A stretch of DNA of 30,850 bases, from positions 1 to 30,850 of IMG/VR virus record IMGVR_UViG_3300032516_000115. The stretch is one strand, 5' to 3'. This DNA is from a virus. Shown here one piece after another: positions 2,292 to 19,470 of this stretch. Made by a program: the position numbers and the translations under genes. Position 1 is the stretch's first letter. Every line of letters begins with the position of its first letter. The notes under the pieces are model-generated. The model saw nothing but the letters and a program-made list of their open reading frames with translations, had not been told where the DNA came from and searched no databases.

Positions 2292-2294
2292 ATC

Positions 2295-2948
2295 ATGAGC
2301 GAAGAAACCGCACCCGCTACGCAAGCACAGGCCGTGACCGAGATTACTTCAGCCGAAGCTATGGGCATGAAAGAAATGGATGTGCAGCTCTTTAAGCGCG
2401 CGCAATTCTATGCTACCGCTACGATAGTTCCTAAGGATTATCAGCGTAATCCTGCTAACTGCTATATCGCAGTTGAGATGGCCCATCGCATGAATCTTCC
2501 CCCTATGTTCGTGATGAACGGCCTATATATCGTGCACGGTCGCCCTGCGTGGTCTGCGAAAGCTCTTATCCAACTCGCTAAAAGCACGGTTTTAAAAGAT
2601 CTGACATACGTCCTCGATAAGTCCGATCCCAACAACTGGCGCTGCGTTTGTCACGCCGAGACTAGAAACGGTCGCACGGTAGAAGGCCCTGAGATTTCGG
2701 TTAAACTCGCTAAGGACTGGGGCTGGTGGGATAAGAACCCTATTTGGAAAAACGGCACCGAACTTATGCTCCGCTATCGTGCTGCTGCCTGGCTCATCGC
2801 TACCGAATTCCCCGAGTGTAGTCAGGGCATCCTCACGAAAGAAGAGATCGAAGACACCGAAGCGGTCGACGGCTTTTCTCGCAACTTCCCGAAGAAAGTC
2901 GCGGGTAAACCTTTAGCCGATCTCATTGGCGCGGAGAGCGTGCAATGA
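2295..2948 (+). CDS. RecT/Bet-type single-strand annealing protein
   Basis: A 217-aa protein with features of the RecT/Bet annealing superfamily. These include the N-terminal segment IVPKDYQRNPANCYIAVEMA, a glycine-bearing core (MFVMNGLYIVHGRPAWSAKAL), and the C-terminal motif ELMLRYRAAAWLIATEFPE followed by GILTKEEIEDTEA, which is highly typical of this family. These proteins coat 3' single strands made by the partner exonuclease and anneal them to complementary DNA. It lies 3 bases after the exonuclease stop, with GGAG inside the exonuclease end as ribosome site. The acidic tail after residue 185 is less conserved. Confidence 0.85.
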   Translation: MSEETAPATQAQAVTEITSAEAMGMKEMDVQLFKRAQFYATATIVPKDYQRNPANCYIAVEMAHRMNLPPMFVMNGLYIVHGRPAWSAKALIQLAKSTVLKDLTYVLDKSDPNNWRCVCHAETRNGRTVEGPEISVKLAKDWGWWDKNPIWKNGTELMLRYRAAAWLIATEFPECSQGILTKEEIEDTEAVDGFSRNFPKKVAGKPLADLIGAESVQ

Positions 2949-2962
2949 TTGCGGTCCTTTGA

Positions 2963-3004
2963 GACCTCTGATAGGCTGGGTCAAAATACCCCAGCTCAGA
3001 GGTC
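2963..3004 (+). promoter_or_regulatory. Long stem-loop that masks the resolvase ribosome site
   Basis: GACCTCTGA (2963-2971) pairs with TCAGAGGTC (2996-3004), and GCTGGG (2975-2980) pairs with CCCAGC (2990-2995), leaving only a TAG bulge on one side and an apical loop of about 9 nt. The AGAGG at 2998-3002 is the only plausible ribosome site for ATG 3008 and lies wholly within the stem. A competing short hairpin, GGTC (2953-2956) with GACC (2963-2966), would open the base of the stem. Confidence 0.65.
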
Positions 3005-3007
3005 CGC

Positions 3008-3493
3008 ATGGCGCAACACGAGGTCGTTGTAGGGATAGATCCCGGTATAAAAGGCTGTCTTGTCGTCCTTGAAACCGTCACAGGACACTTGCTAGACAAG
3101 ACTTTGATGCCTTCCGACGTACTCGATATTTATAAATTCCTCTACTCCGTCAAGAATACATTCCCATCGCTCATCATCGCCTGTGAAAAAGCTCAGACGT
3201 TGCCCCAAGTTCAAGGGGCTAAATCCGCGTTCACAACGGGCCGAAACTTCGGGCAGCTAGAAGCTGCGATTAGGCTCCTCTACGTCCCTGCGCAGTATAT
3301 TCCGCCCGTTACATGGCAGGCTGAGCTTCACAAGGGGGCCGATGGGCCAGGGCCGAAGGAGAGATCTCTTTCGGTTGCGAAAAATCTCTGGCCGTGGGAA
3401 ACCTTTACGTTTTCCGAAAAACAGCAGAAAGCCCAAGACGGTATCGTGGACGCCATGCTTATTGCGGAGTTTCTCAGGAGAAGAGTCAAGTGA
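3008..3493 (+). CDS. RuvC-fold Holliday junction resolvase
   Basis: A 161-aa RuvC/RNase H-fold nuclease. The acidic catalytic pattern is visible: D11 in VVVGIDPGIKG, E60 in IIACEKAQ, and D144/D148 in AQDGIVDAMLIAEF. The internal segment TTGRNFGQLEAAI and the PPVTWQ motif are typical of phage and bacterial RuvC-like resolvases. It should cut four-way DNA junctions made during recombination or replication, clearing DNA before packaging. It completes the exonuclease and annealing-protein set upstream. Its start codon sits 4 bases after a strong RNA stem that hides the ribosome site, so its translation may be controlled separately from the upstream genes. Confidence 0.85.
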   Translation: MAQHEVVVGIDPGIKGCLVVLETVTGHLLDKTLMPSDVLDIYKFLYSVKNTFPSLIIACEKAQTLPQVQGAKSAFTTGRNFGQLEAAIRLLYVPAQYIPPVTWQAELHKGADGPGPKERSLSVAKNLWPWETFTFSEKQQKAQDGIVDAMLIAEFLRRRVK

Positions 3494-3521
3494 AGTGGAT
3501 ACCTAGAATAAAGACCCTTCG

Positions 3522-3608
3522 ATGAAAGCGATGATTGGATCAGATTTGGCTTTTGTTGGCACGCTTGGAGTTCTACTCTTGCCCTTGATCTTCCAAGATG
3601 GACTATAG
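3522..3608 (+). CDS. Possible 28-residue hydrophobic peptide
   Basis: ATG 3522 opens a 28-residue frame with a single hydrophobic stretch of about 17 residues (FVGTLGVLLLPLIF core), enough for one membrane pass, ending at TAG 3606-3608. The ribosome site is weak (AAAGA). It overlaps the start of the next frame by 11 bases. It could be a small membrane peptide of the phage, or chance. Confidence 0.25.
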   Translation: MKAMIGSDLAFVGTLGVLLLPLIFQDGL

Positions 3609-3795
3609 AATTCGATTGGGGGAAAGAGTGAACCTTAGGCCTAGATACCTAGATTATAAACAGATGACGAAAAAGCAGCTGATCGAATGTATCAAGGAAC
3701 TAGAGGCGGAGGTCAATAAGCTGATCATGCTGAGGATTAAAGATGATCATAAAACCCCTCAAAAAGCTGAAACGCCTTCTGAGCAAGGGCTATAG
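3598..3795 (+). CDS. Small charged phage protein
   Basis: A 65-aa frame from ATG 3598; an internal ATG at 3664 would give 43 aa. Neither start has a good ribosome site. The central segment MTKKQLIECIKELEAEVNKLI is a short amphipathic coiled coil that closely resembles helical segments found in many small phage proteins. The tail is hydrophilic. No family or function can be assigned, and the start remains uncertain. Confidence 0.45.
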   Translation: MDYRIRLGERVNLRPRYLDYKQMTKKQLIECIKELEAEVNKLIMLRIKDDHKTPQKAETPSEQGL

Positions 3796-3863
3796 GTATG
3801 TCACTTTCCCTCCAGCCAACACCTGATTTATGATCACTACACCCAGTCACATAGGAGCCATAA

Positions 3864-4091
3864 ATGGCTAACCCGTTCGCCGACCTAAACAACAAGATCC
3901 GAGACGCAGACGATCGGTTCACGAAACGTGAGTATATCGCAGCGAAGATGCTGCAAGGCCTGATAAGTCGCGAAAGAGATTTCACTTTTAGTGCGACGAA
4001 TGCAAACAATCTTACGATCAGTGCAATCCAAATTGCAGACATGCTGATCGAAAATTTAAGAACCAGGCCTACAGGAGCAGCAGTAAAATGA
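3864..4091 (+). CDS. Small phage protein of unknown function
   Basis: A 75-aa protein preceded by TAGGAGCC, a good ribosome site. It is mostly helical and amphipathic (residues 5-65) with no membrane segment or recognised motif. Its stop overlaps the start of the next gene by 4 bases (ATGA), so translation is probably coupled to the DUF6948-like gene. It heads the accessory cassette 3864-5225. Confidence 0.6.
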   Translation: MANPFADLNNKIRDADDRFTKREYIAAKMLQGLISRERDFTFSATNANNLTISAIQIADMLIENLRTRPTGAAVK

Positions 4092-4366
4092 GCGAATTTG
4101 TTATTGTTAGAACCTTTTCCGCAGGAGTTCACTGCGGTCTTTTGATTTTCCAACAAGGAAAAGAAGTACATTTAAGGGATGCTCGACGAATATGGCGCTG
4201 GCGTGGTGCTAATACTCTAAACGAAGTTTCCATCAAAGGAGTTTCCGATGATTATTCAAGAATCAGCGAGCCGGTGGAAAGAATTGAATTGACCGAAGCA
4301 ATCGAAATCATTCCTTGCACAGATATCGCAAGAGAAAATCTTTCAAGGAGTCGTTGGGATGACTGA
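4088..4366 (+). CDS. DUF6948-like protein
   Basis: A 92-aa protein with the pattern VRTFSAGVHCGLLIFQQGKE, then LRDARRIWRWRGANTLNEVS, RISEPV and LTEAIEIIPC, ending in ARENLSRSRWDD. From memory this matches a widespread phage/prophage family called DUF6948. Its function is unknown. Related loci often carry a GY/GS/GD repeat protein directly next to it, or fused to the C terminus. Here the stop overlaps the repeat gene's start by 8 bases (ATGACTGA), so the two are translationally coupled. The fold looks beta-rich with a basic central segment (DARRIWRWR). The family name has moderate certainty because no search was possible. Confidence 0.7.
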   Translation: MSEFVIVRTFSAGVHCGLLIFQQGKEVHLRDARRIWRWRGANTLNEVSIKGVSDDYSRISEPVERIELTEAIEIIPCTDIARENLSRSRWDD

Positions 4367-4712
4367 CAGTCTTGACAGCTACGGCTACGGCTACGGCTCC
4401 GGCTCCGGCTCCGGCTCCGGCTACGGCTCCGGCTCCGGCTACGGCTACGGCTCCGGCTCCGGCTACGGCTACGGCTACGGCTACGGCTCCGGCTCCGGCT
4501 CCGGCTCCGGCTACGGCGACAGCTACGGCTACGGCTCCGGCGACGGCTACGGCTACGGCTACGGCTCCGGCTACGGCTCCGGCTCCGGCTCCGGCGACAG
4601 CTACGGCTACGGCTACGGCTCCGGCTCCGGCGACGGCTCCGGCTCCGGCGACAGCTACGGCTACGGCTCCGGCGACGGCGACGGCGACGGCTCCGGCGAC
4701 GGCGACGGCTAA
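4359..4712 (+). CDS. GY/GS/GD dipeptide-repeat low-complexity protein
   Basis: A 117-aa protein. After the leader MTDSLDS, every residue belongs to a YG, SG or DG pair, apart from a few DS pairs. Tyrosines dominate the first two thirds and aspartates the last third, so negative charge rises toward the C terminus. There is no hydrophobic core, signal or membrane segment. The DNA is an almost pure GGC-NNC hexamer array in which NNC is TAC, TCC or GAC, one base change apart. All three forward frames are open because of this composition, but only this frame starts by overlap with the DUF6948-like gene and ends just before the ribosome site of the RyR gene. It is expected to be disordered. Function unknown. 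Confidence 0.7.
   Translation: MTDSLDSYGYGYGSGSGSGSGYGSGSGYGYGSGSGYGYGYGYGSGSGSGSGYGDSYGYGSGDGYGYGYGSGYGSGSGSGDSYGYGYGSGSGDGSGSGDSYGYGSGDGDGDGSGDGDG
4374..4709. repeat. Hexanucleotide repeat array (GGCTAC/GGCTCC/GGCGAC)
   Basis: An uninterrupted run of about 55 six-base units, all in one frame. Four units carry AGC instead of GGC and all occur in the same context, GACAGCTAC, at 4374, 4518, 4596 and 4650. The distances (144, 78 and 54 bases) are all multiples of six. Gain or loss of a unit keeps the reading frame, so length can vary without loss of the protein. Confidence 0.85.
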
Positions 4713-4736
4713 AAAATATTTAAAGGAGATAAAAAA

Positions 4737-5225
4737 ATGAGCGAAGAATTAACCGAAGTTTCCCACGACGAGATTAAGGCTTTCATGAACGAGCCCGAGG
4801 AGCCTAAGGCTCCGGCACCGATGATCATTGACGATTGGGAACCGGAAGAGGAAAAGAAAGACCATCGGAAGACCACAGAAGAGATTTGCATCATCGCTCA
4901 CAAGGCTTTGAACGCCTACGAAGGACTGGACAGCCCGTGGGAATATGAACCCGACCTGTACAAAGCGGAGATGCTTCAGAAAGCAGCCTATTTCATTAGC
5001 ACAGCTGCTAACCCAAACGGCTACGAAGAATGCAGTAAAATGCACGATGTGAATTTGGAAGTTAAGCTAAAAACAGGCTGGAAGTATGGGGAAAGCTATT
5101 CTGATGAAGAGAAAACCGACCCTTACCTCTTGCCTTACCGCGTGATTCCGATGGAAGAAAAAACCAAGGACTTTATGCTGAGAAGCATCGTCCTTGCTTT
5201 GCTCCAAGTCTGGAAAGGGTACTGA
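4737..5225 (+). CDS. RyR-domain protein
   Basis: A 162-aa protein with a strong ribosome site (AAAGGAG, 8 bases before ATG). Residues 1-45 are acidic and proline-rich. Residues about 46-155 match the RyR domain found once per prokaryotic or phage protein and repeated in animal ryanodine receptors. Key features are a helical start (TEEICIIAHKALNAYEG), then HDVNLEVKLKTGWKYGESYSD, EKTDPYLLPY, and the final helix EEKTKDFMLRSIVLALLQVW. The GW.YG and KT.P.L.PY elements are the family signature. The domain is thought to bind small ligands or nucleotides in prokaryotes, but the ligand here is unknown. It is the last gene of the plus-strand block. Confidence 0.8.
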   Translation: MSEELTEVSHDEIKAFMNEPEEPKAPAPMIIDDWEPEEEKKDHRKTTEEICIIAHKALNAYEGLDSPWEYEPDLYKAEMLQKAAYFISTAANPNGYEECSKMHDVNLEVKLKTGWKYGESYSDEEKTDPYLLPYRVIPMEEKTKDFMLRSIVLALLQVWKGY

Positions 5226-5231
5226 ACGATG

Positions 5232-5254
5232 GTCCCCTTATCGGGGACTGTCTC
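5232..5254 (+). terminator. Probable terminator between convergent operons
   Basis: GTCCCC (5232-5237) pairs with GGGGAC (5243-5248) around TTATC, followed by TGTCTCTT. It lies 6 bases after the RyR stop, between the plus-strand early genes and the end of the minus-strand late operon. The T tract is imperfect, so termination may be partial. Confidence 0.5.
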
Positions 5255-5259
5255 TTGCG

Positions 5260-5601
5260 TCACCCGCCCCGATTCAGTATTTGTTGCCTGATCGAAACGT
5301 CAACGGTAAGGTTACCCGTACCAGACGTATAGACCCAAACCACCCGCACGTAGGGATAGTTGATATCTGTTAAATTTATCAGAGTATCTGCCGATGCCGT
5401 GACCGCCGTCGCCGTCTGAATCAGAAAAGGCCTAGCGAAGTCTTGCGTGAACGCAGCTTGAAGCGATAGCGTTCCGACCACGTCCGCGCCGGTAATAGTC
5501 ACGCCCACGGCTACGTTGCCGTTGTCTCCCGTAGGGATCGCAGACGATGTAAAGTTAGTAACCGCCGTCTGAATCGGTATGAATGAATCCCATATTCTCA
5601 T
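5260..5601 (-). CDS. Small beta-rich virion protein, last gene of late operon
   Basis: A 113-aa protein with alternating hydrophobic and Thr/Ser/Val residues (VAVGVTITGADVVGTLSLQAAF; LTVDVSIRQQIL), a pattern of beta strands. It starts with an ATGA overlap on the stop of the 749-aa gene, so it belongs to the same transcript. Length and composition suit a small structural protein such as a tail accessory or head-decorating protein, but I recognise no family. Its stop is 35 bases from the stop of the convergent RyR gene. Confidence 0.6.
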   Translation of the reverse strand: MRIWDSFIPIQTAVTNFTSSAIPTGDNGNVAVGVTITGADVVGTLSLQAAFTQDFARPFLIQTATAVTASADTLINLTDINYPYVRVVWVYTSGTGNLTVDVSIRQQILNRGG

Positions 5602-7847
5602 GGCCCTGTTTCCTCCATTAATTGCTTATATTCTGGGTCTTTTTGCATCAGCATCGTGTGAGTGATCGCGATAGCCTGTGGGCCCCGCTTGGCGGCTTCG
5701 CTATAAATCTGAGCGAACTTTTGGCCTCGAGGGCTGTCGATCGCATCGACTATCTTTCTAACCACAGTTTTCCCGACGACATCCGACACCGCGCCGGCAG
5801 TCGATCCCAGAAAACTCATGATTTTACTGCCGCCGTGCATGCCAGCAGCTTCAGCGACGGCACCGCCTGCCTCTGCTCCGAGCTTTGTAAGACGAGAGCC
5901 CTGTATCTGACCGCCCGTCATAGCCCGCTTCACGTAGGCATTGCGTGCTTGATCAGTATAGTAATTTATAGGCTTACCCTCAGCTAGAGCGATAGCTTCC
6001 ATCTGCTTCCTTCGGTCGTTAAACTGCTCTGGCCGCCGTCCGTATTTTTCCATAAAAGCGCGGGCATTCTCGTCCTTGCCGAGACCTTTGCTAAGGTCGG
6101 CTATGTCTTTTCCCCGAGCGTATTCAGGCTTGAACTTTTCAGCAGCCTCGCCTATTTTCCGCCCTTTCTCGGCCTCTACAAATAAATTAGGAAGCTCATA
6201 GTTTCCTTCGTAGTCTAGGCCTTCGATGCTTTTTGCTTTCTCAAGCTGAGGGGCATAGTCGCGGCCTTGGATGTCTTTTAATTTGTCTAAGTTAGGCTTA
6301 ATTCCGCCACCAAAAGCAGTATCAGCAGCTTCCAAAGCGCCCAGCCTAGCCTCGCGCCCCGGGCTGTGTATGTCTCCCATCTGCCTATAGATAGCATCAG
6401 GATCATTGCCAAACTGCTCTTGAAAATCCTTTAAAGGACCCATTTTTGTCGACGTTTCTTTCATCGCTTGCCGATAGCCCGGAATTATCTTCTTAGCCTT
6501 TTCCGACATTCCGCGCCTGATGTCCATCAGCGCACGTCCACCCGGTCCTATCCTCTGACCTGCAGCCTGGGCTGCGTAAATATGCTCTATATCGTCGTCT
6601 AGATCCTGCGTCAAACGCCTAAATTTAGCGACTGGGATTACTTTGTCTTCAAGAGTATCCAGTCTAGAAAGCCATTTTTTAATAGCTTGCGCCTGTTCCC
6701 CGCCTTCATCAGACAAGGTTACTAGAAGATCGTTAAGGTTTCTTTGAGCCACGGCACGGAAAGGCGCAATCTTCACATTTTTACCAGACGCGATTGCTAA
6801 TTCGGTTGCAGCTTGGGAAGAAGCAGAGATAGCAGCCCGCGCCTTTTTTGGGAGTGCAGCGATATCCGTTGCCAGCCCTCGTCTCACATTTTCAGACTCT
6901 GCTAGATCCTGAGCTTCGCTTTTTGCTACGCCTTCTTTCAATTCCCTAGCCTGCCCCATTCCTTCCGATCTTTCCCGCACAGCTGTGGAAGCGTATTGAT
7001 TTCGTTTTAGCGCTGCTTCAGCTTCAGCTTGCCGGATTGCCTCTGCTTCACTGCGTCCTGCCTGCTCGCCAATCAGCTCTCCACGCTTTTTCATTTCTCT
7101 ACCCGCTGCCGACATCTCCTCATAGGTGTTTTGAGGATCTATAGACTGAACAGCAGGCCGGTTGGCCCGGTAATAAGCAAGGTCTTCCCCAGGAATTTGA
7201 GCCACGAAACGTGAGTAACCATGCCCAAGGCCTTTGGCGATTTGCGGAACGACATCGGCACCGCCCTGAAACATAGCGGCATATTTTGCCGAGTCGATGG
7301 CATCTTCGCCCGATCCACCGCGTGAGAGAGTGTCCGCTGCCGACACTCCAGCAGCCTTAACCCCGCGCTCAGCAGTTTGAGCACCGAAACGCCACAATCT
7401 TCCGGCCCAGCTCGTGGCTTCAGGGATCAGCTTCGAGGTCCGCGAAGCGGAAACACCGGGCACCGTCAATCCTGCCAAAGCCGATTTGCTAAAGGATGCC
7501 AAAGGACTTGCCGCATCGTAGCGGTTGCGCTCGGCCTCTGCCTTTTGGGCTGCTTTTTGGTTCCTATCGTAGAGCTGGCCAAAGCTGCTCTCGGAAAAAG
7601 GAGTCTCAGCTGCTGCCTCTAAGCCGGAGGCGATTTTTGTACCTAGGTCCGCAATAGGCTTTCCGATAACCGGAAGACTTTCCCCAATCGAGCTGCCTTT
7701 TGCATAACTTTCGCCGAATTTCTTAGCCTGATCCCATGCACCTTTCAACATGAAGTTACTGTCGTAACCAGCATCAGAAGTCTTTCTCTGCCTAGCTTTG
7801 GTAAGCCTAGCATCGAGTAGCGCGTTATCAAGTTCTTCATCGGTCAC
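5598..7847 (-). CDS. Large alpha-helical internal/ejection protein
   Basis: A 749-aa protein started by GTG at 7847, with a full GGAGGT ribosome site and a GTGA overlap on the preceding stop. It is rich in Ala, Glu, Arg, Lys and Gly. Long helical stretches occupy about residues 240-560, and a Gly/Ala-rich segment (GGAVAEAAGMHGGSKIMSFLGSTAGAVSDVVG) lies near residue 680. No enzyme motif is visible. In podoviruses the genes after the portal often encode large helical proteins that are ejected with the DNA, which fits size, composition and position. The assignment is by context, not by similarity. Confidence 0.6.
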   Translation of the reverse strand: MTDEELDNALLDARLTKARQRKTSDAGYDSNFMLKGAWDQAKKFGESYAKGSSIGESLPVIGKPIADLGTKIASGLEAAAETPFSESSFGQLYDRNQKAAQKAEAERNRYDAASPLASFSKSALAGLTVPGVSASRTSKLIPEATSWAGRLWRFGAQTAERGVKAAGVSAADTLSRGGSGEDAIDSAKYAAMFQGGADVVPQIAKGLGHGYSRFVAQIPGEDLAYYRANRPAVQSIDPQNTYEEMSAAGREMKKRGELIGEQAGRSEAEAIRQAEAEAALKRNQYASTAVRERSEGMGQARELKEGVAKSEAQDLAESENVRRGLATDIAALPKKARAAISASSQAATELAIASGKNVKIAPFRAVAQRNLNDLLVTLSDEGGEQAQAIKKWLSRLDTLEDKVIPVAKFRRLTQDLDDDIEHIYAAQAAGQRIGPGGRALMDIRRGMSEKAKKIIPGYRQAMKETSTKMGPLKDFQEQFGNDPDAIYRQMGDIHSPGREARLGALEAADTAFGGGIKPNLDKLKDIQGRDYAPQLEKAKSIEGLDYEGNYELPNLFVEAEKGRKIGEAAEKFKPEYARGKDIADLSKGLGKDENARAFMEKYGRRPEQFNDRRKQMEAIALAEGKPINYYTDQARNAYVKRAMTGGQIQGSRLTKLGAEAGGAVAEAAGMHGGSKIMSFLGSTAGAVSDVVGKTVVRKIVDAIDSPRGQKFAQIYSEAAKRGPQAIAITHTMLMQKDPEYKQLMEETGP

Positions 7848-9103
7848 GGCTGACCTCCGTTCAGTTCTTGCAGCTCTTTTAGTTTCTCTTCGCGCGTCAT
7901 TTCATGCAAGGGTTTGAAACCTGCAGCCGAAGGTAGGGGCGGTGTTTCGGTTTTTTTAGCGGGTTTTGCTTTTGGAATATACATTCCGCCTTCATCAAAA
8001 TCTTCTTTCTGCAAACCATGCCGATTCAAAGTATCCCAATACTCGTCTGGGTGCAGTTTTCTAAGATTAGCAGCAACGCCTAAACCGGAAACTTGCGCTT
8101 TTACAAGCTGATCTTTGCGGATAGCTTTTTCTCGCTGGACAGTCTCAGCAAGCTTTTTAACAAAATCATTCATCGCCCCACCTGTAGGGATACCAGTAAT
8201 GTATTCCTGAAGGGATTGCAGATTGCCTTGGGCCGAAACAGGTACCAGTTCATGCACTCCACTAACTGTTGAAACCCCGCTTGTTAGTAGGTTATCTAAG
8301 CCTTTGGCGAGTTCCTGGATTTGCCTCTTATCGATATCTTTTTTAAGCTGACCGTTCTCGTCGAAAATTAAGCCCTCGACCGCCTCAGCTTGAAGCACTT
8401 TATCATTCAGCTTAGCCATCGACCCAGCACGCTGGCCGCTAGGGTTTATTCTCGCTTCCAAGTCCTTTAACTCCTGGTCGAGGACTTTGCGATCACCTGC
8501 TGTTTTGCGTTCTGCTTGACCGGTGTCTCTTGGGTGCGCTCTATCCCAATCAATTTTTTCTTGTCGCTGCTTAAAATTCCTATCCTCATTTGCGGTCCTA
8601 GTTTTCGCCGCCTCATCGAGGAACCCTTGACGCTGCATGTATTGCTTAATCTTCAGATGCCGATCTTCATCGCTCTGCACTTGCTGTCGATCCTGGTTGA
8701 TGCCCTGCATGGTCTGGGCGTTCTGCCCCTGAAGCTGGCCTAGGTACTTATCGAGTCCACCACCGGAGGCTTGTTTTCCCCCGATGGTGCCAGCTGCATT
8801 TGCTGCGCTATTGAATAGGCCGATTAGGCCTAGATCCCTGTTATTATCTTGCAAGGCTTCCATCGGAGCCCTGCCTGCGTGACGTGAGTCCGGCGACATA
8901 GGCATCTGCCCTTGGGCTTCTTGCTTGCGTAAATATTCTTTTATCTTCTCGCGTGGATCGTCAGGGATTCTAGGTGTATTTGGCATGACACTTGGAGTCA
9001 CTGGGATCGGTCTTGCCGGAGCAATATCGCTCTCATCGTTTGTAACTGGCTCGCCGTACATATCGAGTTCTAGGTCTTCATCGTCCACGCCTGGAATCGG
9101 CAT
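7844..9103 (-). CDS. Putative internal virion protein (Gln/Arg-rich)
   Basis: A 419-aa protein. I place the start at ATG 9103 because GGAGGA (complement of 9111-9116) sits at ideal distance. The longer frame to 9136 would begin inside a parS palindrome and lacks a ribosome site. The N terminus is acidic then proline-rich (IPVTPSVMPNTPRIPDDP). The middle, about residues 70-240, is Gln/Arg/Lys-rich and helical. The C terminus is basic and proline-rich before a final helix (REEKLKELQELNGG). It has no recognised motif. Position among the post-portal genes suggests an ejection or internal head protein. The two parS-like sites lie in its upstream gap. Confidence 0.6.
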   Translation of the reverse strand: MPIPGVDDEDLELDMYGEPVTNDESDIAPARPIPVTPSVMPNTPRIPDDPREKIKEYLRKQEAQGQMPMSPDSRHAGRAPMEALQDNNRDLGLIGLFNSAANAAGTIGGKQASGGGLDKYLGQLQGQNAQTMQGINQDRQQVQSDEDRHLKIKQYMQRQGFLDEAAKTRTANEDRNFKQRQEKIDWDRAHPRDTGQAERKTAGDRKVLDQELKDLEARINPSGQRAGSMAKLNDKVLQAEAVEGLIFDENGQLKKDIDKRQIQELAKGLDNLLTSGVSTVSGVHELVPVSAQGNLQSLQEYITGIPTGGAMNDFVKKLAETVQREKAIRKDQLVKAQVSGLGVAANLRKLHPDEYWDTLNRHGLQKEDFDEGGMYIPKAKPAKKTETPPLPSAAGFKPLHEMTREEKLKELQELNGGQP

Positions 9104-9119
9104 TCTATTTTCCTCCGAG

Positions 9120-9135
9120 TGTTCCACGTGGAACA
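9120..9135. promoter_or_regulatory. parS-like centromere site 1
   Basis: TGTTCCACGTGGAACA is a perfect 16-bp palindrome. The chromosomal parS consensus bound by ParB is TGTTTCACGTGAAACA; variants with C at position 5 and G at position 12 are known functional chromosomal sites in several bacterial groups. It lies in the 64-bp gap between two late genes. A T run follows on the plus strand, but the flanking genes read on the minus strand. Confidence 0.8.
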
Positions 9136-9147
9136 CTTTTTAAAATA

Positions 9148-9163
9148 TGTTTCACGTGGAACA
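9148..9163. promoter_or_regulatory. parS-like centromere site 2
   Basis: TGTTTCACGTGGAACA differs from the 16-bp ParB-site consensus at one base and from site 1 at one base. It is 28 bp from site 1, start to start. The ACTTTTTAA that follows each site is also repeated, so the pair looks like a duplication of about 24 bp. It lies 4 bases beyond the stop of the 413-aa gene. Confidence 0.8.
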
Positions 9164-9167
9164 CTTT

Positions 9168-10409
9168 TTAACTTTGGCCGTAAGCAGAATCATAAGAACG
9201 AGCCGAGGAGTATTTATCGGCCGGACGGGAATAGTATTTATCCCAGCGCGCGTCTTCCCTGTCCTGAGCTTCTTTTTGCGACTGAGCGCTGGCCTTCCCG
9301 CCGTAATACCCAGCTGCAGCCCCTGCTATGCCTCCGATCATTTGATTTCGGTCCTGAGCACTTTGCATCGCTTGCGCGTTTTGCTGGTAGCCGATCCCAG
9401 ACATAGCCGACTGCTTTGACATCTGATCCTGATAAGCCTGCCGACGCAGATCGTTTTGCCGATCTTTTTCACGAGCACCCCAGTTAGCCTGCTGCTCGGC
9501 GATGGTGTTCTGGTAGTTCCGCTCACCGACATCGTTTTGATACTTCATCTGAGCCAAACGGTTTTTGTTCTCTAAGTTATAGCGCTGCGTTTCATTGCCC
9601 AGCCCTACGTTTCGATTCGATACGTCTTGCTGCTGGCCTATGTTATATCGCTGCGCGTCGTTTTGCATCTGTGCCCTTTGGTTCAGGTAATCTTGATAAT
9701 TTTTTGATGTCCGCTGATTAAACGAGTTGATGATATCGGTGTTGCCCGCTTCCTGAGCTAGTTCATCCTGAGATAGTTGGCGGCCCATCTGCCCTGCTCC
9801 CTGAATAGCAGCAAGCTTATCTTTATATGCCGCGATGGCTGCTGCTTGAGACTGAGCAGCCCCGCCCTGCATCGCGTCGGAAGATCCCTGGAGCGCGGAC
9901 GCAAACGAGAGACCAGAACCAAGCATACCTCGGCGCTGGGCATCTTGAAGTGAGGATTGAGTTCTCTGCTGCGCTTGAGCCTGGGCCTGATCGGCGGCTT
10001 GCTGCATGCGAATCTTGAGTTCAGGAGATTCTCCTTTCGCCACGGCTTGAAGCTGACGAAGAGCATCGATCTGAGCGCCTCTGCCTTCTTTTTGTGCAGC
10101 GGATCCCTTAACAAGCTCAGGCCTCGATTCGCCAACAAACTGGGCCGCCTGCGGTGCATAGGTAGCCACGACTTTATAAGTTTCAGGAGTTAAACGCGAG
10201 AAATCAAGCTTCGCGCCTTCGAGCTGCTGGGTAATGTACTTCGGCGGATCGTTGATTGAGATATCGTAGCCAGGAGGCACAATAGCTTCGAACGCCGCTT
10301 TTATAGCGTTCAGCTGCTTTTTACTAGCGCCCCTAGCCTGCGAGGCAGAATATTCCTGAGCCAGCGCAGATACCGCTGCAATACCGGCTGCGATTAACGT
10401 TGGGTCCAT
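9168..10409 (-). CDS. Gln/Ala-rich putative internal virion protein
   Basis: A 413-aa protein extremely rich in Gln, Ala, Asn and Tyr. An N-terminal hydrophobic segment (PTLIAAGIAAVSALAQEY) and a Gly/Ala segment near residue 360 (MIGGIAGAAAGYYGGKASA) flank a long polar helical core containing repeated QRYN-type blocks (DAQRYNIGQQ; ETQRYNLENK). Such proteins with membrane-active ends are typical of podovirus ejection proteins. It starts by a TAATG overlap with the preceding gene and a GGAGGAGAG ribosome site. Its stop is followed by the parS pair, making this the only roomy gap among the post-portal genes. Confidence 0.6.
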   Translation of the reverse strand: MDPTLIAAGIAAVSALAQEYSASQARGASKKQLNAIKAAFEAIVPPGYDISINDPPKYITQQLEGAKLDFSRLTPETYKVVATYAPQAAQFVGESRPELVKGSAAQKEGRGAQIDALRQLQAVAKGESPELKIRMQQAADQAQAQAQQRTQSSLQDAQRRGMLGSGLSFASALQGSSDAMQGGAAQSQAAAIAAYKDKLAAIQGAGQMGRQLSQDELAQEAGNTDIINSFNQRTSKNYQDYLNQRAQMQNDAQRYNIGQQQDVSNRNVGLGNETQRYNLENKNRLAQMKYQNDVGERNYQNTIAEQQANWGAREKDRQNDLRRQAYQDQMSKQSAMSGIGYQQNAQAMQSAQDRNQMIGGIAGAAAGYYGGKASAQSQKEAQDREDARWDKYYSRPADKYSSARSYDSAYGQS

Positions 10410-11812
10410 TATTCTCTCCTCCCCGCTTTAGAGCTTTTCTTTTGCTGGCCGCGTAATGTCATCGACGAATTGATCCCGGAGCCTGCATTCTGCATCGATG
10501 GAAGTGCTGCGCCCGGACTAGGCGAGAAGATGGATTCCATCGGCTGATCCAGTGGTATATTCAGCTCGGGAGGACCGGCCTGCTGATAGTCACCCGGCGA
10601 TGGCGTAGGCGGCTTCCAATCCTGCAGTGGGCCGCCCTTTGCTTCCCATTCCGATTGCCTCTGCCTGATTTGGTCCAAAAGGCCATTATAGGCCGCGTCT
10701 TTTTTGAACTCATAATCTTTGGGCACTCCGCCCAAATCTTGCGTGAGAGTGTCGGAATTTCCGAGCAGGCCCTCGGCGCGGTTGTATTGATCGACATCGT
10801 CTGCAGTCAAAAGCTGTTTCCAATCCACGTCCCTATTCATCGAAATATAGGGATTGAAGTCTATATTACCCTCATCAATCCACCGTGCAGCTGCTTCACC
10901 GCCTAGGTTTTTCTTCGCTTCAGCCTTTAGGGCTTCAATATCTTTCGCGGCAAGCTTAGACGGGTCAAGGCCCGCACGCCTTGCGTCTTCTGCAGCTTCT
11001 CTATCTTGGGCTGCTTTTGTTATCTGCGAAGCATAGCCTCCGAGCTGGCTCCTAATGTCATTTGTAGCTCCCGAATAAGCGCCTGAGAGCATATCCTGAG
11101 CCTTTTTCGTCTCCGTCTCTTGTGCCGACGTGTCAGCCTTTCGAAGCGCCTCTTGGCGAGCTAGCAGATCAGACTGCTGCTGCCGAAAGCCTTGGTTTTG
11201 CCTTAAAAGAGACGCATCTAATCGGGCCTGACCGCCCGTATAGCTAGGCCCTGCTTCGCCGCGATAAAGAGAGCCTAAATCTTTCACGTAATCGATATTA
11301 GGAACTTCATCCAGTCCACCAAAGCCACCGAAAAGCGCTGGACTACCGCCCGATAGACGTTTAGAAACAGTCTGAAAATCTTCTGACTTGCCACCAATCG
11401 CATTTTTAAGGGTATCAGAGCTGAGTTTAAAACCTTCAGCCTCTTTCTGAGCTTTTTGTTGATAACTGTTCGCCTTCTCTTGAAGCGCTTGCTCACCTTT
11501 TGCTAAGGACTCGCCCGCTCTATTCAGCGATTGCGCCGGAAGTCGAACGTTCGACGCCGCAGACGAGTAAGCAGACGAGTAAGCCTGAGGATTATAGCCC
11601 GCTGGAGCTTTCGCTGTGGACTGAGCAGGAGGGCCTGCTGCAGACCCTCCGACGCCCGGCGAAGATACCGAGCCACTCGTAGATGTTTTCTGAATCGCAT
11701 CGGTTCCTCCGGCCTGAGTCGTCGTCCCCTGATTGGTCTGCTGGCCGCCAAAGATATTCTGCTTTCCTGGGTCCTCTGGATCATCCGAGAGCGAGTTAAA
11801 AAGGTAAGCCAT
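10409..11812 (-). CDS. Putative internal/ejection protein next to portal
   Basis: A 467-aa protein starting by TAATG overlap with the portal stop, with AGGAGC as ribosome site. Residues 10-100 are low in complexity and rich in Gly, Ser, Thr, Gln and Ala. Residues about 100-310 are helical and charged, rich in Lys, Glu and Ala. The C terminus is proline-rich with a basic end (GQQKKSSKAGRRE). No catalytic motif is seen. Its place immediately after the portal fits a portal-associated or internal head protein. I do not recognise the family. Confidence 0.6.
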   Translation of the reverse strand: MAYLFNSLSDDPEDPGKQNIFGGQQTNQGTTTQAGGTDAIQKTSTSGSVSSPGVGGSAAGPPAQSTAKAPAGYNPQAYSSAYSSAASNVRLPAQSLNRAGESLAKGEQALQEKANSYQQKAQKEAEGFKLSSDTLKNAIGGKSEDFQTVSKRLSGGSPALFGGFGGLDEVPNIDYVKDLGSLYRGEAGPSYTGGQARLDASLLRQNQGFRQQQSDLLARQEALRKADTSAQETETKKAQDMLSGAYSGATNDIRSQLGGYASQITKAAQDREAAEDARRAGLDPSKLAAKDIEALKAEAKKNLGGEAAARWIDEGNIDFNPYISMNRDVDWKQLLTADDVDQYNRAEGLLGNSDTLTQDLGGVPKDYEFKKDAAYNGLLDQIRQRQSEWEAKGGPLQDWKPPTPSPGDYQQAGPPELNIPLDQPMESIFSPSPGAALPSMQNAGSGINSSMTLRGQQKKSSKAGRRE

Positions 11813-13833
11813 TATCTAGCTCCTATCTTAGAGACCAAATCGGGCGCGGGTTTGGCAACGTTGGCCGGTGTCCCCGGGGGCTCTTGCGGGGCCCGCTGCG
11901 GACGCTGCGGAACTTCCATCCCTGGAGGAGGCATGTGAGGAGGAGGACCGCCTTGAGGCATCTTCCCGGTTTGGATCATCGCTGCGAAGAAGGGGTCCAT
12001 TTCATGAGCCAGCTGATTATGCTCGGCGATATGCTCCAGGAATCGACCCGAAAGGTTTTTGTCGAGCCTCACCTTAGGATCGTTCAAAGGAATCGAATGC
12101 ATCATAATATGATACGCATGATCGTCGATATTCACAGCTACAATTTCTTCGCCCTTGATCAGCGACTCATTTTCGTTATTGACCAAATCTTCTTGGCTCA
12201 ATTCATTCTTATAAAGTTCTTCCGGTGGGGCACCTTCGAGTACCGCAAAATAACCCTTGGTATTGGTCACAGCCCCCATATTAATCAGGTCTTTGGCAAT
12301 TTCGACACGGCCCGGGAGAGTGTTCATCAAAGGATTAACTTCCTGAAGCTCTACGCCTTTCACCGAGTCCAGGTCTTTCCCCTCAAATTCCCTAGAATAC
12401 GATTGCCCACCGGTCGAGGTATTCAGACTTCTAGGCACCGATGCAAAGCGCCGATAACAGTTGATAGCTCCCAGCACAGCTTCGTGCAGCATCTGCCTAG
12501 AGGATTTAGCCGTCGCGTTAATCGTCTCATAGGCGGTCGCCGTAAGCGTGGCAATCGCAGTCCCTGAGCTGACTTGCGGTGGAGGATCACCGCGTAGGGC
12601 AGAGTTGACCTGTGAGATTTCCATCATCAGGCCTTTGAGCATTTCCGAAAACTTATAGGTTTCCGGTGCGCTTTGCGTGAGTTGAAGCGCTTCCGGTTTT
12701 CCTCCGTTCGGCACTCCTGGTTGCGGTGTATAGCTGATCCAATTCATGCCGAGGATTGCCTGAGTGTTGATCCCCGAACCCCTTGGCGCGATTATGTTTT
12801 GCACTCCGAATGAACTGTTATTGGTAGCGATGCTCGAGAGGCATGTATCATACATTTCCTGTAGTGGGAGCAAATTACTATAAAAAGGATACCCAAGACC
12901 TGTATTCGGAATAGCCTCTGGGCGGGAAACATAAACAGGAAGCTCACCATAGATGTTGATATCATCGTATAGAATACATGTAGAAGACCCATATGCTATG
13001 AAACGCCCCTCAGGCAAGGCAGGCGAAGATTTATGAAAGGCGTTCCAAATGTAAACGTTGTCGTCATCCGACGGGCACATCGATGCCTGAATATTAAACC
13101 AGCCCTGCTGCTGCCTCACGCTGGGAAGCGCTAGGAGTTCCTGCTTTAGCTTAGGAAACTGGGCGATAAGGTCCCAGCGATTATGAATTTCACGGACCTG
13201 AACCCATTGCCAGTCTTTGGGGTTAGGAATTTGAGGATCGAAGTTCACGTCCCAGACGGTCGGTACCGAAATAGCAACGTCACCCTTGAAGTGACTAGCT
13301 CCAATCATGTCTTTGGTGAAGAAAGCGCCCTTGTCCGTTCGCCACCGAACGAACATAAATCCCATACCTGTAACCATACCGTTCTCGATAGAATCAGCAT
13401 ATTTTAGGTCTAGAAACTGGTTTTTGACGATGTCCTTGCAAAGTGCATTGCCGAGCCTCGCAGCTTCCATAAGGTTTGGCTGCTCATAGTCTTTCATCGA
13501 CCCATCGCCTGGATTGACGAGACAGCGAAAGTAGAGATCCTGCTTAGTCACAATTCCTACAATCTGCCGAATGAGAGAGCGCGACATCGGGACGAGCATT
13601 TGAATCAGTTCGCCTTGCTTGCCTTTGAAGATAAGGCTAGTATCCCAGTTACTGGGCGCTATGACATTGCTAAAATAGATTAGTTGGTTTCTGAACCAAG
13701 TCATATAAATTGGGTTGTTTCCCCAAGCCTTATTTCCGTGGTCGTTATACGGATGAAGATGGCTCACAAGCTTGAATTGGTCCTGGTCGGCCCACCAATA
13801 TGAATCGCTCGACCCTTTGTAATCTAATACCAT
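11812..13833 (-). CDS. Portal protein (podovirus type)
   Basis: A 673-aa protein with the general character of P22-type portal proteins, which form the dodecameric ring at the DNA-entry vertex. Visible features include a Trp/Tyr-rich N terminus (SYWWADQDQFKLV), a clip/stem-like region around LYFRCLVNPGDG and LKYADSIENGMVTGMGFMFVRW, and VPTVWDVNFDPQI followed by WVQVREIHNRWDL. A helical segment with ALRGDPPPQVSSGTAIATLTATAYETINATAKSSRQML is typical of portal helices. The C terminus (about 620-673) is proline-rich. A GGGAG ribosome site lies upstream. Similarity is judged by pattern only. Confidence 0.75.
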   Translation of the reverse strand: MVLDYKGSSDSYWWADQDQFKLVSHLHPYNDHGNKAWGNNPIYMTWFRNQLIYFSNVIAPSNWDTSLIFKGKQGELIQMLVPMSRSLIRQIVGIVTKQDLYFRCLVNPGDGSMKDYEQPNLMEAARLGNALCKDIVKNQFLDLKYADSIENGMVTGMGFMFVRWRTDKGAFFTKDMIGASHFKGDVAISVPTVWDVNFDPQIPNPKDWQWVQVREIHNRWDLIAQFPKLKQELLALPSVRQQQGWFNIQASMCPSDDDNVYIWNAFHKSSPALPEGRFIAYGSSTCILYDDINIYGELPVYVSRPEAIPNTGLGYPFYSNLLPLQEMYDTCLSSIATNNSSFGVQNIIAPRGSGINTQAILGMNWISYTPQPGVPNGGKPEALQLTQSAPETYKFSEMLKGLMMEISQVNSALRGDPPPQVSSGTAIATLTATAYETINATAKSSRQMLHEAVLGAINCYRRFASVPRSLNTSTGGQSYSREFEGKDLDSVKGVELQEVNPLMNTLPGRVEIAKDLINMGAVTNTKGYFAVLEGAPPEELYKNELSQEDLVNNENESLIKGEEIVAVNIDDHAYHIMMHSIPLNDPKVRLDKNLSGRFLEHIAEHNQLAHEMDPFFAAMIQTGKMPQGGPPPHMPPPGMEVPQRPQRAPQEPPGTPANVAKPAPDLVSKIGAR

Positions 13834-13842
13834 TGTGACTCC

Positions 13843-16800
13843 CTATCGAGTGACGCGCTCAGAATACCCATGCACCGCATACGAAAGACTCTGTATCAGC
13901 AGCGGTTCACATGCTTGTCTGTTGCTCAATATCGCCTTAATAAACGTCGACCGTGAAGCAAATAACGGGATGTAGGTCCTGATTATAAGCGAAGGATACG
14001 TCCCGTTCACAATCTGAATATTCCCGCTCGTCGCTGTCGATCCCCACTCAAAGAGTCCCCAAGGACCATCGCCCCAGCCCTCTATCGCGGTAGCCGTACT
14101 CTGCGTTACAAGCTGCGCCTGCCAATCGGTTATGCCCGATCCCCGTATCGATTCATTAGCAAAATCGATCAGAAGATCTGAGATCATGTTTTGCCTAAGG
14201 TGTAGCTGAAATTGGCTGAATTGCTTTTCCCGTCCGACCTGCCCAGCGTGAAACGGGGCGAAGGTCATATCGGAGGTGAAGCCTTGGTAAAAATTAACAG
14301 CATCGCCGGTGCCGGGTATTGTTGTTGCGGAAACAAAGGTCAGATCATAGCCGATCCCGTTCACGGCCACCGATGTAATCCTATTAATAAGCTGGTTATA
14401 AAGGACGACATCCCCCGGCAACGGGACGAAAATATTCCCGCTGACCATGACAGCGTAAACGGTGTTGGTTCCGGTAGCCTGAGCTGTTCCGACGGCGAAC
14501 TCGTTACTGTAGTCGACGAGATTAAATGATTTTCTTTGCCGAAGCACTTTCGTGTTTTCTTGACCTTGCACCGCGTAAATAGTCCCATCGGGGCCTAGGG
14601 CCATGGCTTGAAAGATGACATCGGTCGTGGTCCAGCTTTGATTGAGCACGTTAAACATGTAAGTGATGGGAGCAATACCGGAACGTTGGTCTGTTTGACA
14701 AAAATACCAAGTTCGGCCGGACTCGTAGCCGAAAGATGCAAAGACATCCACATTCACAAGGCCCACAATCGGCTGGATAGGATCATCGATACGCCTGCTT
14801 ATAATCTGTACTGAAGTCTCACTGATGCTAACCAGTCCCTGATTAGATAGGGCCATCACCGAGTTGTTGATCGTGTCAGCACCCTTGCTCGAGTCGACCA
14901 AGACCGTGCCGTCTATAATCGTGATCGAGAACTGATCGATCGTGTCGCCTGTCAGCTTAAAGATGCCATCTTCTTTTAGGATGATAACCGAATCACGAAG
15001 AGTGAAGATTCGTCTTATCGCTTTTTGCTTAGCGCCGGCCCGAAAGAAATTGACGATAGGCACTGCTTCAGGCTCGCCGATTTTACTTACAAAGATCGTA
15101 TCGGGTAGCACGTCGTTTTGCGACGATACTTGCACACCCGATAGAAATGAGGTCGGCAAAGGTGGAATAAATGGTTGCGGCGAGTTGGTCTGAAGTCTCA
15201 CGAAGAGATTAGTATTGGTGGCGTCGAAGGCCTTTAATTCTATCCTGATCTGGCCGGGATTGTCATCAAATGTTGAGGCGTAATTAGCGTACATGTAGGC
15301 GCTATTTCGGTTGATAGCTTTCACCAAAGCATAGGCGGTGTTCGCTACCTGAACCCCTACACTTGACGATGTTTGATCAGAAAAGAAGACCGGGAAAGTG
15401 CCGTTCGTGAGAAATGAAAAAGTAATCGCAGTGGCCGTGTTTCCCGTCGAAACTATCGTAAATGTATTAACGGTCGAGGCTGTAATCGTATATGTTCCAC
15501 GTGGAACACTTCCCGTAACAGCTTCAATGTCTACCGTCCAACCCGTTGATGCACCGTGGTTTGCGTAGGTTATAACTACGTTAGTGATGCCTGCAACACT
15601 AGTAGCAGCAGTAGTTTTATTACCTAACGCGGTACCTGAAACCGCTAGATAGCTTTCCTGGACTGAGTTATAGACAAATATTACGAAGTTCCCGCCTGCT
15701 ATCCCTGCAGGATTCACGAGGTTTAAAAACAGCCGCTGCTTAGTGCTTACGTTGGCATAGAGCATGTAGTTCTTATAGAGCTGGATATCCTGGGCCAAGG
15801 GAGGTCTTGCGTTCGCCTGCAGCTCGCCCTCCCGCGTGTTCGGATTGGTGTACAGCTGTGCGCCTAGTAGGCTAGAGTCCACCGTGTCGGTATAGAGGAT
15901 ATAGCCGAGGTCAAGGTCGGTTTGAGTCAGATTGACTTCTGCAGCTAGGGCGAAATCAGGGCTTGGAGATACGTCAGATCCGGCAGAGCTGGTAGTCCGA
16001 TAGACTTGATAAAACCACTCGAAAGTGGCGTCATTTATCTCCGATGGGATAGAAAATTCCAGCGTAGCCTGGCGGCTGAAAGTATAGTCTAGCGTTCCAC
16101 CTGTGGGGTTATTCACAACCTGGAATTGAAAGGTCAGAGCTGTAGGCGTAGCGCTCACGGTTTGAGTGCCGTTAGCATCGGTGTCCGAAGCATTAGTGAC
16201 GACGATTTGATCGCCTACGACCAAAAGATGAGGGCTTGTCGTGGTCACCGTAACAGTGAAAGGCGTAGGCCCAGTGGAACTGTAACTAAGTCCTGTCCCC
16301 GTAGGCCCAAAGCCGACGTAAGCTATGTCAGATGGAGAACTAAGGAGAAGATTTCCGTTCGCATCCCTTCGACCGAATAAGATCCTATAGCCAGTCTCGG
16401 AATTTGCAGGCAAAGGCCCCGCTGCCGTCCCCGTTTCCATAGCTTTCAGGTCGAGAGCAGGAGGAACGCCCGCTTTTTGCACGGTGGAATTATAAGCTTC
16501 CAGCCTGAAAATGCCGCTTCCAGTTGTGAAGTAAAGGTTATTATTCTGCTCGGCTGTTCGATAAGGATCGAGCGGGTTATAGCTTTCGCCCGTTAGAACC
16601 ACAGCGTTATATTGCGGAGAATAGTCCTCATCGGGAGAGATTTGATCAAAAGTATTGATATAGCGTACATCGTTTCCGATCATGATCAGATAATTCTGGT
16701 AGGTAACCATCGTTCTGATCGGATTATTGAGCGGAGACGTGTAATAGGTGTACCAACCATGGGTTTTAGACAATATCGCATCGCTTTGAATTTCGACGTT

Positions 16801-16896
16801 GCTGCAAACTTCCATAGCGCCGTCTGGGACGTCAAACGAGTTGGCTTGGAGGTATAGGCCAGAGAACTTTCTAATTTCTGGAAATGAGATAGGCAT
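13843..16896 (-). CDS. Large tail hub/stabilisation-like protein
   Basis: A 1017-aa protein started at ATG 16896, which overlaps the adaptor stop (TAATG) and has GGGAG upstream; a longer frame to 16923 lacks this. The N terminus (FPEIRKFSGLYLQANSFDVPDGAMEVCSNVEI) followed by repeated beta units (TMVTYQNYLIMIGNDVRYI; RTAEQNNNLYFTTGSGIFRL; IFTLRDSVIILKEDGIFKLTG) resembles beta-propeller tail proteins like the P22 stabilisation protein gp10, but about twice as long. Residues about 240-290 and 430-530 look like inserted Ig-like or jelly-roll domains. The in-frame parS-like site encodes part of GSVPRGTYTIT within one insert. Tail nozzle or hub is the best guess. Confidence 0.65.
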   Translation of the reverse strand: MPISFPEIRKFSGLYLQANSFDVPDGAMEVCSNVEIQSDAILSKTHGWYTYYTSPLNNPIRTMVTYQNYLIMIGNDVRYINTFDQISPDEDYSPQYNAVVLTGESYNPLDPYRTAEQNNNLYFTTGSGIFRLEAYNSTVQKAGVPPALDLKAMETGTAAGPLPANSETGYRILFGRRDANGNLLLSSPSDIAYVGFGPTGTGLSYSSTGPTPFTVTVTTTSPHLLVVGDQIVVTNASDTDANGTQTVSATPTALTFQFQVVNNPTGGTLDYTFSRQATLEFSIPSEINDATFEWFYQVYRTTSSAGSDVSPSPDFALAAEVNLTQTDLDLGYILYTDTVDSSLLGAQLYTNPNTREGELQANARPPLAQDIQLYKNYMLYANVSTKQRLFLNLVNPAGIAGGNFVIFVYNSVQESYLAVSGTALGNKTTAATSVAGITNVVITYANHGASTGWTVDIEAVTGSVPRGTYTITASTVNTFTIVSTGNTATAITFSFLTNGTFPVFFSDQTSSSVGVQVANTAYALVKAINRNSAYMYANYASTFDDNPGQIRIELKAFDATNTNLFVRLQTNSPQPFIPPLPTSFLSGVQVSSQNDVLPDTIFVSKIGEPEAVPIVNFFRAGAKQKAIRRIFTLRDSVIILKEDGIFKLTGDTIDQFSITIIDGTVLVDSSKGADTINNSVMALSNQGLVSISETSVQIISRRIDDPIQPIVGLVNVDVFASFGYESGRTWYFCQTDQRSGIAPITYMFNVLNQSWTTTDVIFQAMALGPDGTIYAVQGQENTKVLRQRKSFNLVDYSNEFAVGTAQATGTNTVYAVMVSGNIFVPLPGDVVLYNQLINRITSVAVNGIGYDLTFVSATTIPGTGDAVNFYQGFTSDMTFAPFHAGQVGREKQFSQFQLHLRQNMISDLLIDFANESIRGSGITDWQAQLVTQSTATAIEGWGDGPWGLFEWGSTATSGNIQIVNGTYPSLIIRTYIPLFASRSTFIKAILSNRQACEPLLIQSLSYAVHGYSERVTR
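15493..15508. promoter_or_regulatory. parS-like centromere site 3, inside a coding sequence
   Basis: A second perfect copy of TGTTCCACGTGGAACA, identical to site 1, lies 6.4 kb from the pair. It is embedded in frame in the 1017-aa hub gene, where the minus strand reads codons for S-V-P-R-G-T-Y. It is not followed by a T tract, which argues against a terminator role for this sequence class. Confidence 0.75.
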
Positions 16897-17837
16897 TAAA
16901 CGCTCCCCCCCCAGATTCCCCATAACCCTCTTCGTGGACCGCCTACAAACCCATAGTCATTGATGATCGGAGTCGACTCACCTTCAACCCTAGGCTCGAG
17001 CAGGAGCTTTAAGTTCTTATCCTGAAGATCCCGCGTCTCTTTCAAAGCATCCCGCCCTTCAAAGTCGCCGATAGCCTGCAGGACTTCCATCGCCGTAAGC
17101 GTGACAAGGTATGGCTCAGCAGGGTCCGGAATTTGGACTATGGGGGCAGTTTGAGCAATAGATAGGTAATCGCCCACAGCAATATCGGTAGGCACTTGGC
17201 CCAAAGCAAAGGATAAAGTAGTGCCAGCAATAGCTGTAATAACTCGGTCAATCGCATAGCTACTATTCCCGCTCACGCCTTGAATGAAATCGACCGTAGA
17301 ATTTACAAAGATCGTCGCCGGTACACTCGACACGACGACATCATCGGTTATAGGTCCGAAAGTAAAAGAGACCACGGTGCAAGCGTCAGAGACAGGCACA
17401 AGCTTTCCAGGCCCGAGGAACCACCATAGTTGAAGGCTATAGCCATCGGCCTGAGGAACGGGAACCACGACGATCTTGTCCCCGTAAAAGTAAAAGCCGA
17501 ACGGAGTACCCGAGGCACGGTAGAACTGCTCTCTTTCCACGGCGATCTTGGGAAAGTCCGCCCTTCCCCCAGACGGGGAAACTACTTTCACCTCACGGAG
17601 TTTACGACCTAAAGCACGCGGAGGAATGCCGTATTCATTCACCCACGAAAGGATAGGCACAAGCGAACGCGTGACAAAAAACTCCTGCTGCAGTGAGTCG
17701 ATCACTGGCACGAGCGTGTCTTGCATCTTTCGATTGCCAAAAGCTAATAGGTCGGCATTCGTAAACCGAGTTTGATTGCTCGGAATCGTAATAAGCCTTT
17801 TCACATCGGCTAAAAACTCGTCTGTGGTAATTGTCAT
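16896..17837 (-). CDS. Head-to-tail adaptor-like protein
   Basis: A 313-aa protein. The N-terminal helical part (TTDEFLADVKRLITIPSNQTRFTNADLLAFGNRKMQDTLVPVI) is characteristic of connector/adaptor proteins that sit below the portal in podoviruses. A beta-rich part follows, with a Pro/Gly-rich patch (LWWFLGPGKLVPVSD). The C-terminal helix (YLVTLTAMEVLQAIGDFEGRDALKETRDLQDKNLKLLLEP) is also typical. It lies directly before the hub gene, consistent with forming the tail junction. A ribosome site of AAGGG type precedes ATG. The family is inferred by pattern, and a tail tubular protein A role is the main alternative. Confidence 0.6.
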   Translation of the reverse strand: MTITTDEFLADVKRLITIPSNQTRFTNADLLAFGNRKMQDTLVPVIDSLQQEFFVTRSLVPILSWVNEYGIPPRALGRKLREVKVVSPSGGRADFPKIAVEREQFYRASGTPFGFYFYGDKIVVVPVPQADGYSLQLWWFLGPGKLVPVSDACTVVSFTFGPITDDVVVSSVPATIFVNSTVDFIQGVSGNSSYAIDRVITAIAGTTLSFALGQVPTDIAVGDYLSIAQTAPIVQIPDPAEPYLVTLTAMEVLQAIGDFEGRDALKETRDLQDKNLKLLLEPRVEGESTPIINDYGFVGGPRRGLWGIWGGSV

Positions 17838-19050: not shown

Positions 19051-19470
19051 TTACAGTCCTTTCAATTCATCGATTTGTGATTGCAATTCTTTTATTGCGC
19101 CGACCAAATAAGGTACGAGCACACTTAAATCAATTTCCCAAGGTTGGCCATGTTCAGGCAAAGGATCGACTCCGTTGTCTGTGTTCATCGTGTAGTCAGG
19201 AAAGACATTGATGTATTCCTGCGCTATAAAACCCGATAAAATCTGTTCAGGAGCTGAGGAAAAACGAAAATTTACGGGCCTCAGACCTTGCAACGTTTCA
19301 ACGCAGTCGGGCAGATTTACGACGTCGGTTTTTATCCGCGCATCGCTCTTATGCTTGAAATACTCGATCTGCTGCAGGCGATCTTCGGCAGCTTTCTTGC
19401 TGGCAAACACACCGAGAATCTTTCCTGATTCTGATTTTATAAACCATTTTTTACCGTCTTTTACGATCAT
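19051..19470 (-). CDS. Stand-alone S74-type intramolecular chaperone domain
   Basis: A 139-aa protein. Residues about 1-40 are a small beta-alpha module (KKWFIKSESGKILGVFASKKAAEDRLQQIEYFKH) seen in various phage proteins. Residues 42-139 match the peptidase S74 chaperone domain: S42-D-A-R-I-K47 with the catalytic Ser and Lys positions, VETLQGLRPVNFRF, SGFIAQEYINVFPDY, and the final helix SVLVPYLVGAIKELQSQIDELKGL. S74 domains usually sit at the C terminus of fibres, assist trimer folding and cut themselves off. Here it is a separate gene starting one base after the fibre stop, with almost no ribosome site, so it is probably translated by coupling to the fibre gene. Confidence 0.8.
   Translation of the reverse strand: MIVKDGKKWFIKSESGKILGVFASKKAAEDRLQQIEYFKHKSDARIKTDVVNLPDCVETLQGLRPVNFRFSSAPEQILSGFIAQEYINVFPDYTMNTDNGVDPLPEHGQPWEIDLSVLVPYLVGAIKELQSQIDELKGL

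Follow-up and report, generated by a model that had tools for sequence, protein, structure and literature searches.

Three chromosomal-type parS sites, one of them in frame within a structural gene, in a phage genome fragment with no detected ParB gene

Introduction

Phage phi29, a reported user of the Spo0J protein of its host, carries four copies of the parS sequence TGTTTCACGTGGAACA, in gp10, gp15, gp17, and just after gp16, three of them inside ORFs. A role of host Spo0J (ParB) in the segregation or entrapment of phi29 DNA is reported in a passage of a later paper that cites Meijer et al. 2005, in which Spo0J is described as carrying phi29 DNA into spores (PMC9437464). Another case of borrowed parS, with experimental support, is SGI1, whose two parS mimics hijack the parABS system of an IncC plasmid (PMC10954446).

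The phage fragment described here resembles the phi29 group in several respects. Both have more than one chromosomal-type parS; phi29 has no annotated parB, and none is seen in the 30.8 kb of our fragment. Structural and lysis genes of the phi29 group contain copies whose reading phase matches that of the in-gene copy reported below, and the phi29 16-mer is identical to one of our sites. Unlike the phi29 group, this phage belongs to another lineage, akin to a Silvanigrella phage, and has a tandem pair of sites 28 bp apart. With SGI1, a mobile element that has a centromere without partition genes and is stabilized by the proteins of another replicon, the resemblance is one of principle, as SGI1 mimics a plasmid parS whereas here a chromosomal 16-mer is found in a phage.

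Content of the record

The window, that is, the whole stretch of DNA analyzed, is the entire virus record IMGVR_UViG_3300032516_000115, a linear fragment 30,850 bases long that codes for a terminase, a portal, a likely capsid, tail fiber proteins, and RecE/RecT-type recombination genes. The portal protein (11812-13833, phrog_156) and the terminase large subunit (27309-28781, phrog_2) are both on the minus strand, as is a weak match to an SU10 adaptor protein (16896-17837; PF24175, below the curated cutoff). We found neither a ParB_N domain nor a ParA-type ATPase in the 30.8-kb fragment nor, within those 30.8 kb, the parA and parB genes that a phage-plasmid with its own parABS would carry. We saw no integrase in the ORFs that were scanned. 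Searches with the portal, capsid, and lipoprotein sequences matched no host genome, and sporulation is not implied for this phage.

Several other features of the record deserve mention. An array of a 12-bp unit with 23 registers and periodic 18-bp steps (4314-4763, plus strand) falls in the ORF at 4359-4712 and represents either a protein built of short repeats or an array of tandem units. Beside the packaging genes, the plus-strand gene at 29181-30623 codes for a protein of 480 amino acids (aa) that begins with a lipobox-like sequence (YGCGK) and contains a heme-type motif, CAGCH; it had no relative among the genome contigs searched and is possibly host DNA or a moron. Last, a minus-strand ORF of 139 aa (19051-19470) is similar to the C-terminal part of tail fiber proteins in PHROGs and forms a separate gene beside the 1,404-aa fiber.

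Three parS sites in the fragment

An earlier note on this DNA had pointed to a perfect palindromic 16-mer inside a large gene, repeated 6.4 kb away, and had considered this unlikely to be due to chance. Both copies are real, and the position and reading frame of the first are correct: the perfect parS 16-mer TGTTCCACGTGGAACA is found at 15493-15508, inside a minus-strand structural gene, and the identical sequence at 9120-9135, in an intergenic stretch flanked by minus-strand genes. The latter copy is one half of a pair, as a further site, TGTTTCACGTGGAACA, the same 16-mer as in phi29, is found 28 bp away at 9148-9163. This sequence is one base off a perfect palindrome but still fits the chromosomal ParB-site pattern TGTTNCACGTGNAACA, which all three sites match, and CTT follows the 16 bases in every case. 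Elsewhere in the record there is no further parS within three mismatches. The trio is far beyond chance: dinucleotide-preserving shuffles contain a mean of 0.07 matches, and the three observed were not reached in any of 100.

The pair precedes a minus-strand gene without assigned function (7844-9102, start position inferred), in whose leader it is placed, ahead of the ATG at about 9102 and of the likely ribosome site. A GTG at 9136 on the minus strand opens a reading MFHVEH that is parS itself and is probably not the true start of this gene.

The site inside the structural gene

The gene that contains the site at 15493-15508 (13843-16896, or to 16923, minus strand; 1,017 aa) is located between the portal gene and the SU10-type adaptor match. 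The codons at the site, AGT GTT CCA CGT GGA ACA TAT, read S-V-P-R-G-T-Y (residues 463 to 469 of the 1,017-aa form), with the 16-mer itself covering xxT GTT CCA CGT GGA ACA. The protein had no match in Pfam or PHROGs, and its predicted structure had a pLDDT of 28, too low for use, so the label of hub given to this gene in the earlier note is not established.

The same note had proposed that these bases are constrained by a DNA code in addition to the protein code, and this is supported, as the peptide alone does not explain the 16-mer: for SVPRGT encoded with the codon usage found in the structural genes of this phage, the odds of the exact sequence are about 8e-5. Among 25 ORFs checked in all three phases, SVPRGT was the sole peptide able to encode the parS core. 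Close homologs of the gene were absent from the virus contigs searched, and tblastn gave no match for the peptide module around the site. We did find two distant homologs, with 29 to 32% aa identity, one of which lacks most of the segment while the other reads T-A-G-R-Y when aligned, so at most the G and the Y look like a peptide motif. That V, P, R, and T are not shared with these homologs also speaks against a conserved peptide motif as the whole explanation, the alternative that the note itself had raised.

In the records of the two distant homologs there is no parS within two mismatches anywhere, which indicates that parS is not a family-wide trait. The search for viral relatives gave one distant relative. 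Proteobacteria phage MWH-Nonnen-W8red 1 (CP017838; host, Silvanigrella aquatica) has a homologous terminase, capsid, portal, and 1,000-aa structural protein (29 to 43% identity), but it has no parS within two mismatches and most of the site-bearing segment is missing. A longer relative, of 43 kb, has no ParB_N.

Conservation at the DNA level in other phages

The phi29 group allowed us to follow in-gene copies through related genomes. We picked seven phi29-related genomes by gp15-16 similarity, regardless of parS. The gp10 and gp15 copies are kept in six of the seven, with flanking DNA identity down to 68 to 72%, and PumA1, the most distant, has no copies. In codon alignments of phi29 with the six copy-bearing relatives (seven phages), all 14 columns of the parS core are invariant in both genes. 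The core is the only fully invariant 14-column window among 758 in gp15, and in gp10 the longest invariant run, of 22 bases, contains parS; across the rest of both genes, only 10 to 13% of the invariant degenerate residues use one shared codon. In gp15, a change from G to E falls on precisely the position where parS is degenerate. With the core invariant in spite of such a substitution in the protein, it is the DNA code that is kept in this group and not the peptide.

Marine phage families (the L052/L074/L152 and L123/L031 groups), whose sequences are unrelated to this phage, also have parS of the chromosomal type among their packaging and structural genes. It takes the form either of a pair just ahead of terL or of a site in frame in a gene that terminates directly before the portal gene, the site reading E-N-V-P-R-G-T-S. 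Homologs of this parS-bearing gene were gathered by protein alone. Of the five non-self homologs that align at the site, four have a perfect in-gene parS and the fifth has one mismatch; one of the perfect copies, with 80% local DNA identity, shows a change from P to S at a parS-degenerate base. The remaining six homologs have a perfect parS nearby. The sequences of this marine family agree with the phi29 group on DNA-level conservation of in-gene parS. As a third group, L074, L152, and about 45 related marine contigs have a parS pair just upstream of terL, although most were found by the pair pattern and are hence selected for it; in this mostly pair-selected set the spacing is about 24 bp, with one TGTTCC-type and one TGTTTC-type site, and DNA identity is 70 to 99%. 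None of the eight isolate records akin to the marine families has parS, which, together with the distant relatives of our phage that lack it, indicates that the trait comes and goes.

parS in virus contigs at large

At least 120 virus contigs contain the exact 16-mer, and at least 119 contain parS pairs that fit within 32 bases, versus 1 and 17 contigs for two control palindromes sharing the core. Host DNA may be present in some of the parS-bearing contigs. Among 50 parS-bearing records of at least 20 kb, 47 had no ParB_N match and 2 passed the ParB_N cutoff, while the phrog_2 terminase was found in 18. Sites inside genes (ORFs of at least 250 aa, including a few near-duplicates) use one phase in 33 of 40 cases. 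This phase encodes V-P/S-R-G/E-T, while the others require either Cys with Trp or Phe with His; the bias reflects tolerance and not selection, since a chance origin would favor it too. Over 115 distinct virus contexts, conservation ends at the 16-mer save for a weak adjacent A, and there is no T tract, as would be expected for a protein-binding site rather than a terminator.

Two virus contigs carry five (L108, 4324-10457) and nine (L154, record G048, 1285-12436) parS sites within about 10 kb, and the nine-site record had no ParB_N match. We also saw phage ORFs whose GTG or ATG starts read M-F-H-V-E-H/Q, which is parS in another phase; these starts are probably miscalled. Our search of the open literature returned no publication on ParB-less parS in phages at large, which does not disprove that one exists.

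Possible roles of the sites

The sequence at 15493-15508 is supported as a parS-type site and a candidate target of ParB. With three parS and no gene seen for ParB, the phage probably borrows the segregation machinery of its host. We consider it probable, though well short of certain, that the three chromosomal-type sites are under selection and that the phage DNA is handled by host ParB and its segregation machinery; the best reading is that of a phage of the phi29 kind, carrying parS for the ParB of its host. Clamps of host ParB would load on the three sites and slide over the neighboring late genes, and the phage DNA would thereby be tied to the ParA/SMC segregation machinery. Infecting or dormant phage genomes could then travel with the host origin and, in cases of delayed lysis, would be retained as the cell divides. 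The copy at 15493-15508 could sit in a structural gene because the V-P/S-R-G/E-T phase asks little of the protein.

Points that run counter to this explanation are the lack of parS in the records of the two distant homologs and in the isolates akin to the marine families, and the fact that the record is a linear fragment, as a ParB gene could sit in the missing part. The phage might then be an extrachromosomal prophage with its own ParB, perhaps ParA, and the three sites as its own centromere. The lack of an integrase among the scanned ORFs and the two ParB_N-positive records among the 50 would fit such a prophage, but the 47 similar records and the 43-kb relative without ParB_N argue against it, and it is rare for the ParB of a phage to use the exact 16-mer of chromosomes. 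We regard it as unlikely. Slightly less likely still is a regulatory role, in which host ParB would spread and silence the late genes until replication dilutes it, acting as a roadblock and lysis timer. All three sites are indeed among late genes, as are most of those of phi29, and the pair is just upstream of a likely ribosome site; nevertheless, no promoter stands out at the sites, in-gene copies are far from known promoters, and site positions vary between phage families.

The two other alternatives are less probable. Replicating phage DNA could act as a decoy that titrates host ParB and upsets host segregation or division, in the way that the parS mimics of SGI1 stabilize SGI1 and destabilize its helper plasmid (PMC10954446). 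We think this very improbable, as three is a small number of sites for one genome and their position would not have to be conserved for titration. The least credible option is an RNA hairpin or terminator, or the operator of a phage repressor that resembles parS by accident. On the plus strand, the pair does form a long hairpin with a T tract, but such folding is expected of any two palindromes and gives no independent support, and the genes on either side of the pair are on the minus strand. The same 16-mer is found again in unrelated phages, and the end of flank conservation at its borders also points away from a hairpin. An intrinsic terminator was rejected, with no T tract on the minus (coding) strand at any of the three sites. 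The in-gene copy has no T tract, in line with the suggestion of the earlier note that this class of sequence is not simply a terminator hairpin.

Implications for phage biology

The use of host Spo0J by phi29 is usually told as a trick for spore entry. We suggest, tentatively, that hitchhiking on host ParB-parS could be common among phages, far outside those of spore-forming hosts, and that this window would be one instance of it. Many unrelated ParB-less phages would then keep parS, often hidden in late genes as V-P/S-R-G/E-T codons, and their dormant or slowly replicating genomes would be partitioned, or compacted by SMC, together with the host origin. For annotation, the finding is a warning that VPRGT, VSRGT, or VPRET peptides and MFHVEH starts in phages can be parS and not protein features, and it yields a simple sequence signature. 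More than 100 diverse virus contigs with the exact parS, mostly ParB-less, together with the conservation of in-gene copies at the DNA level, suggest that phages may widely exploit host segregation outside sporulation.
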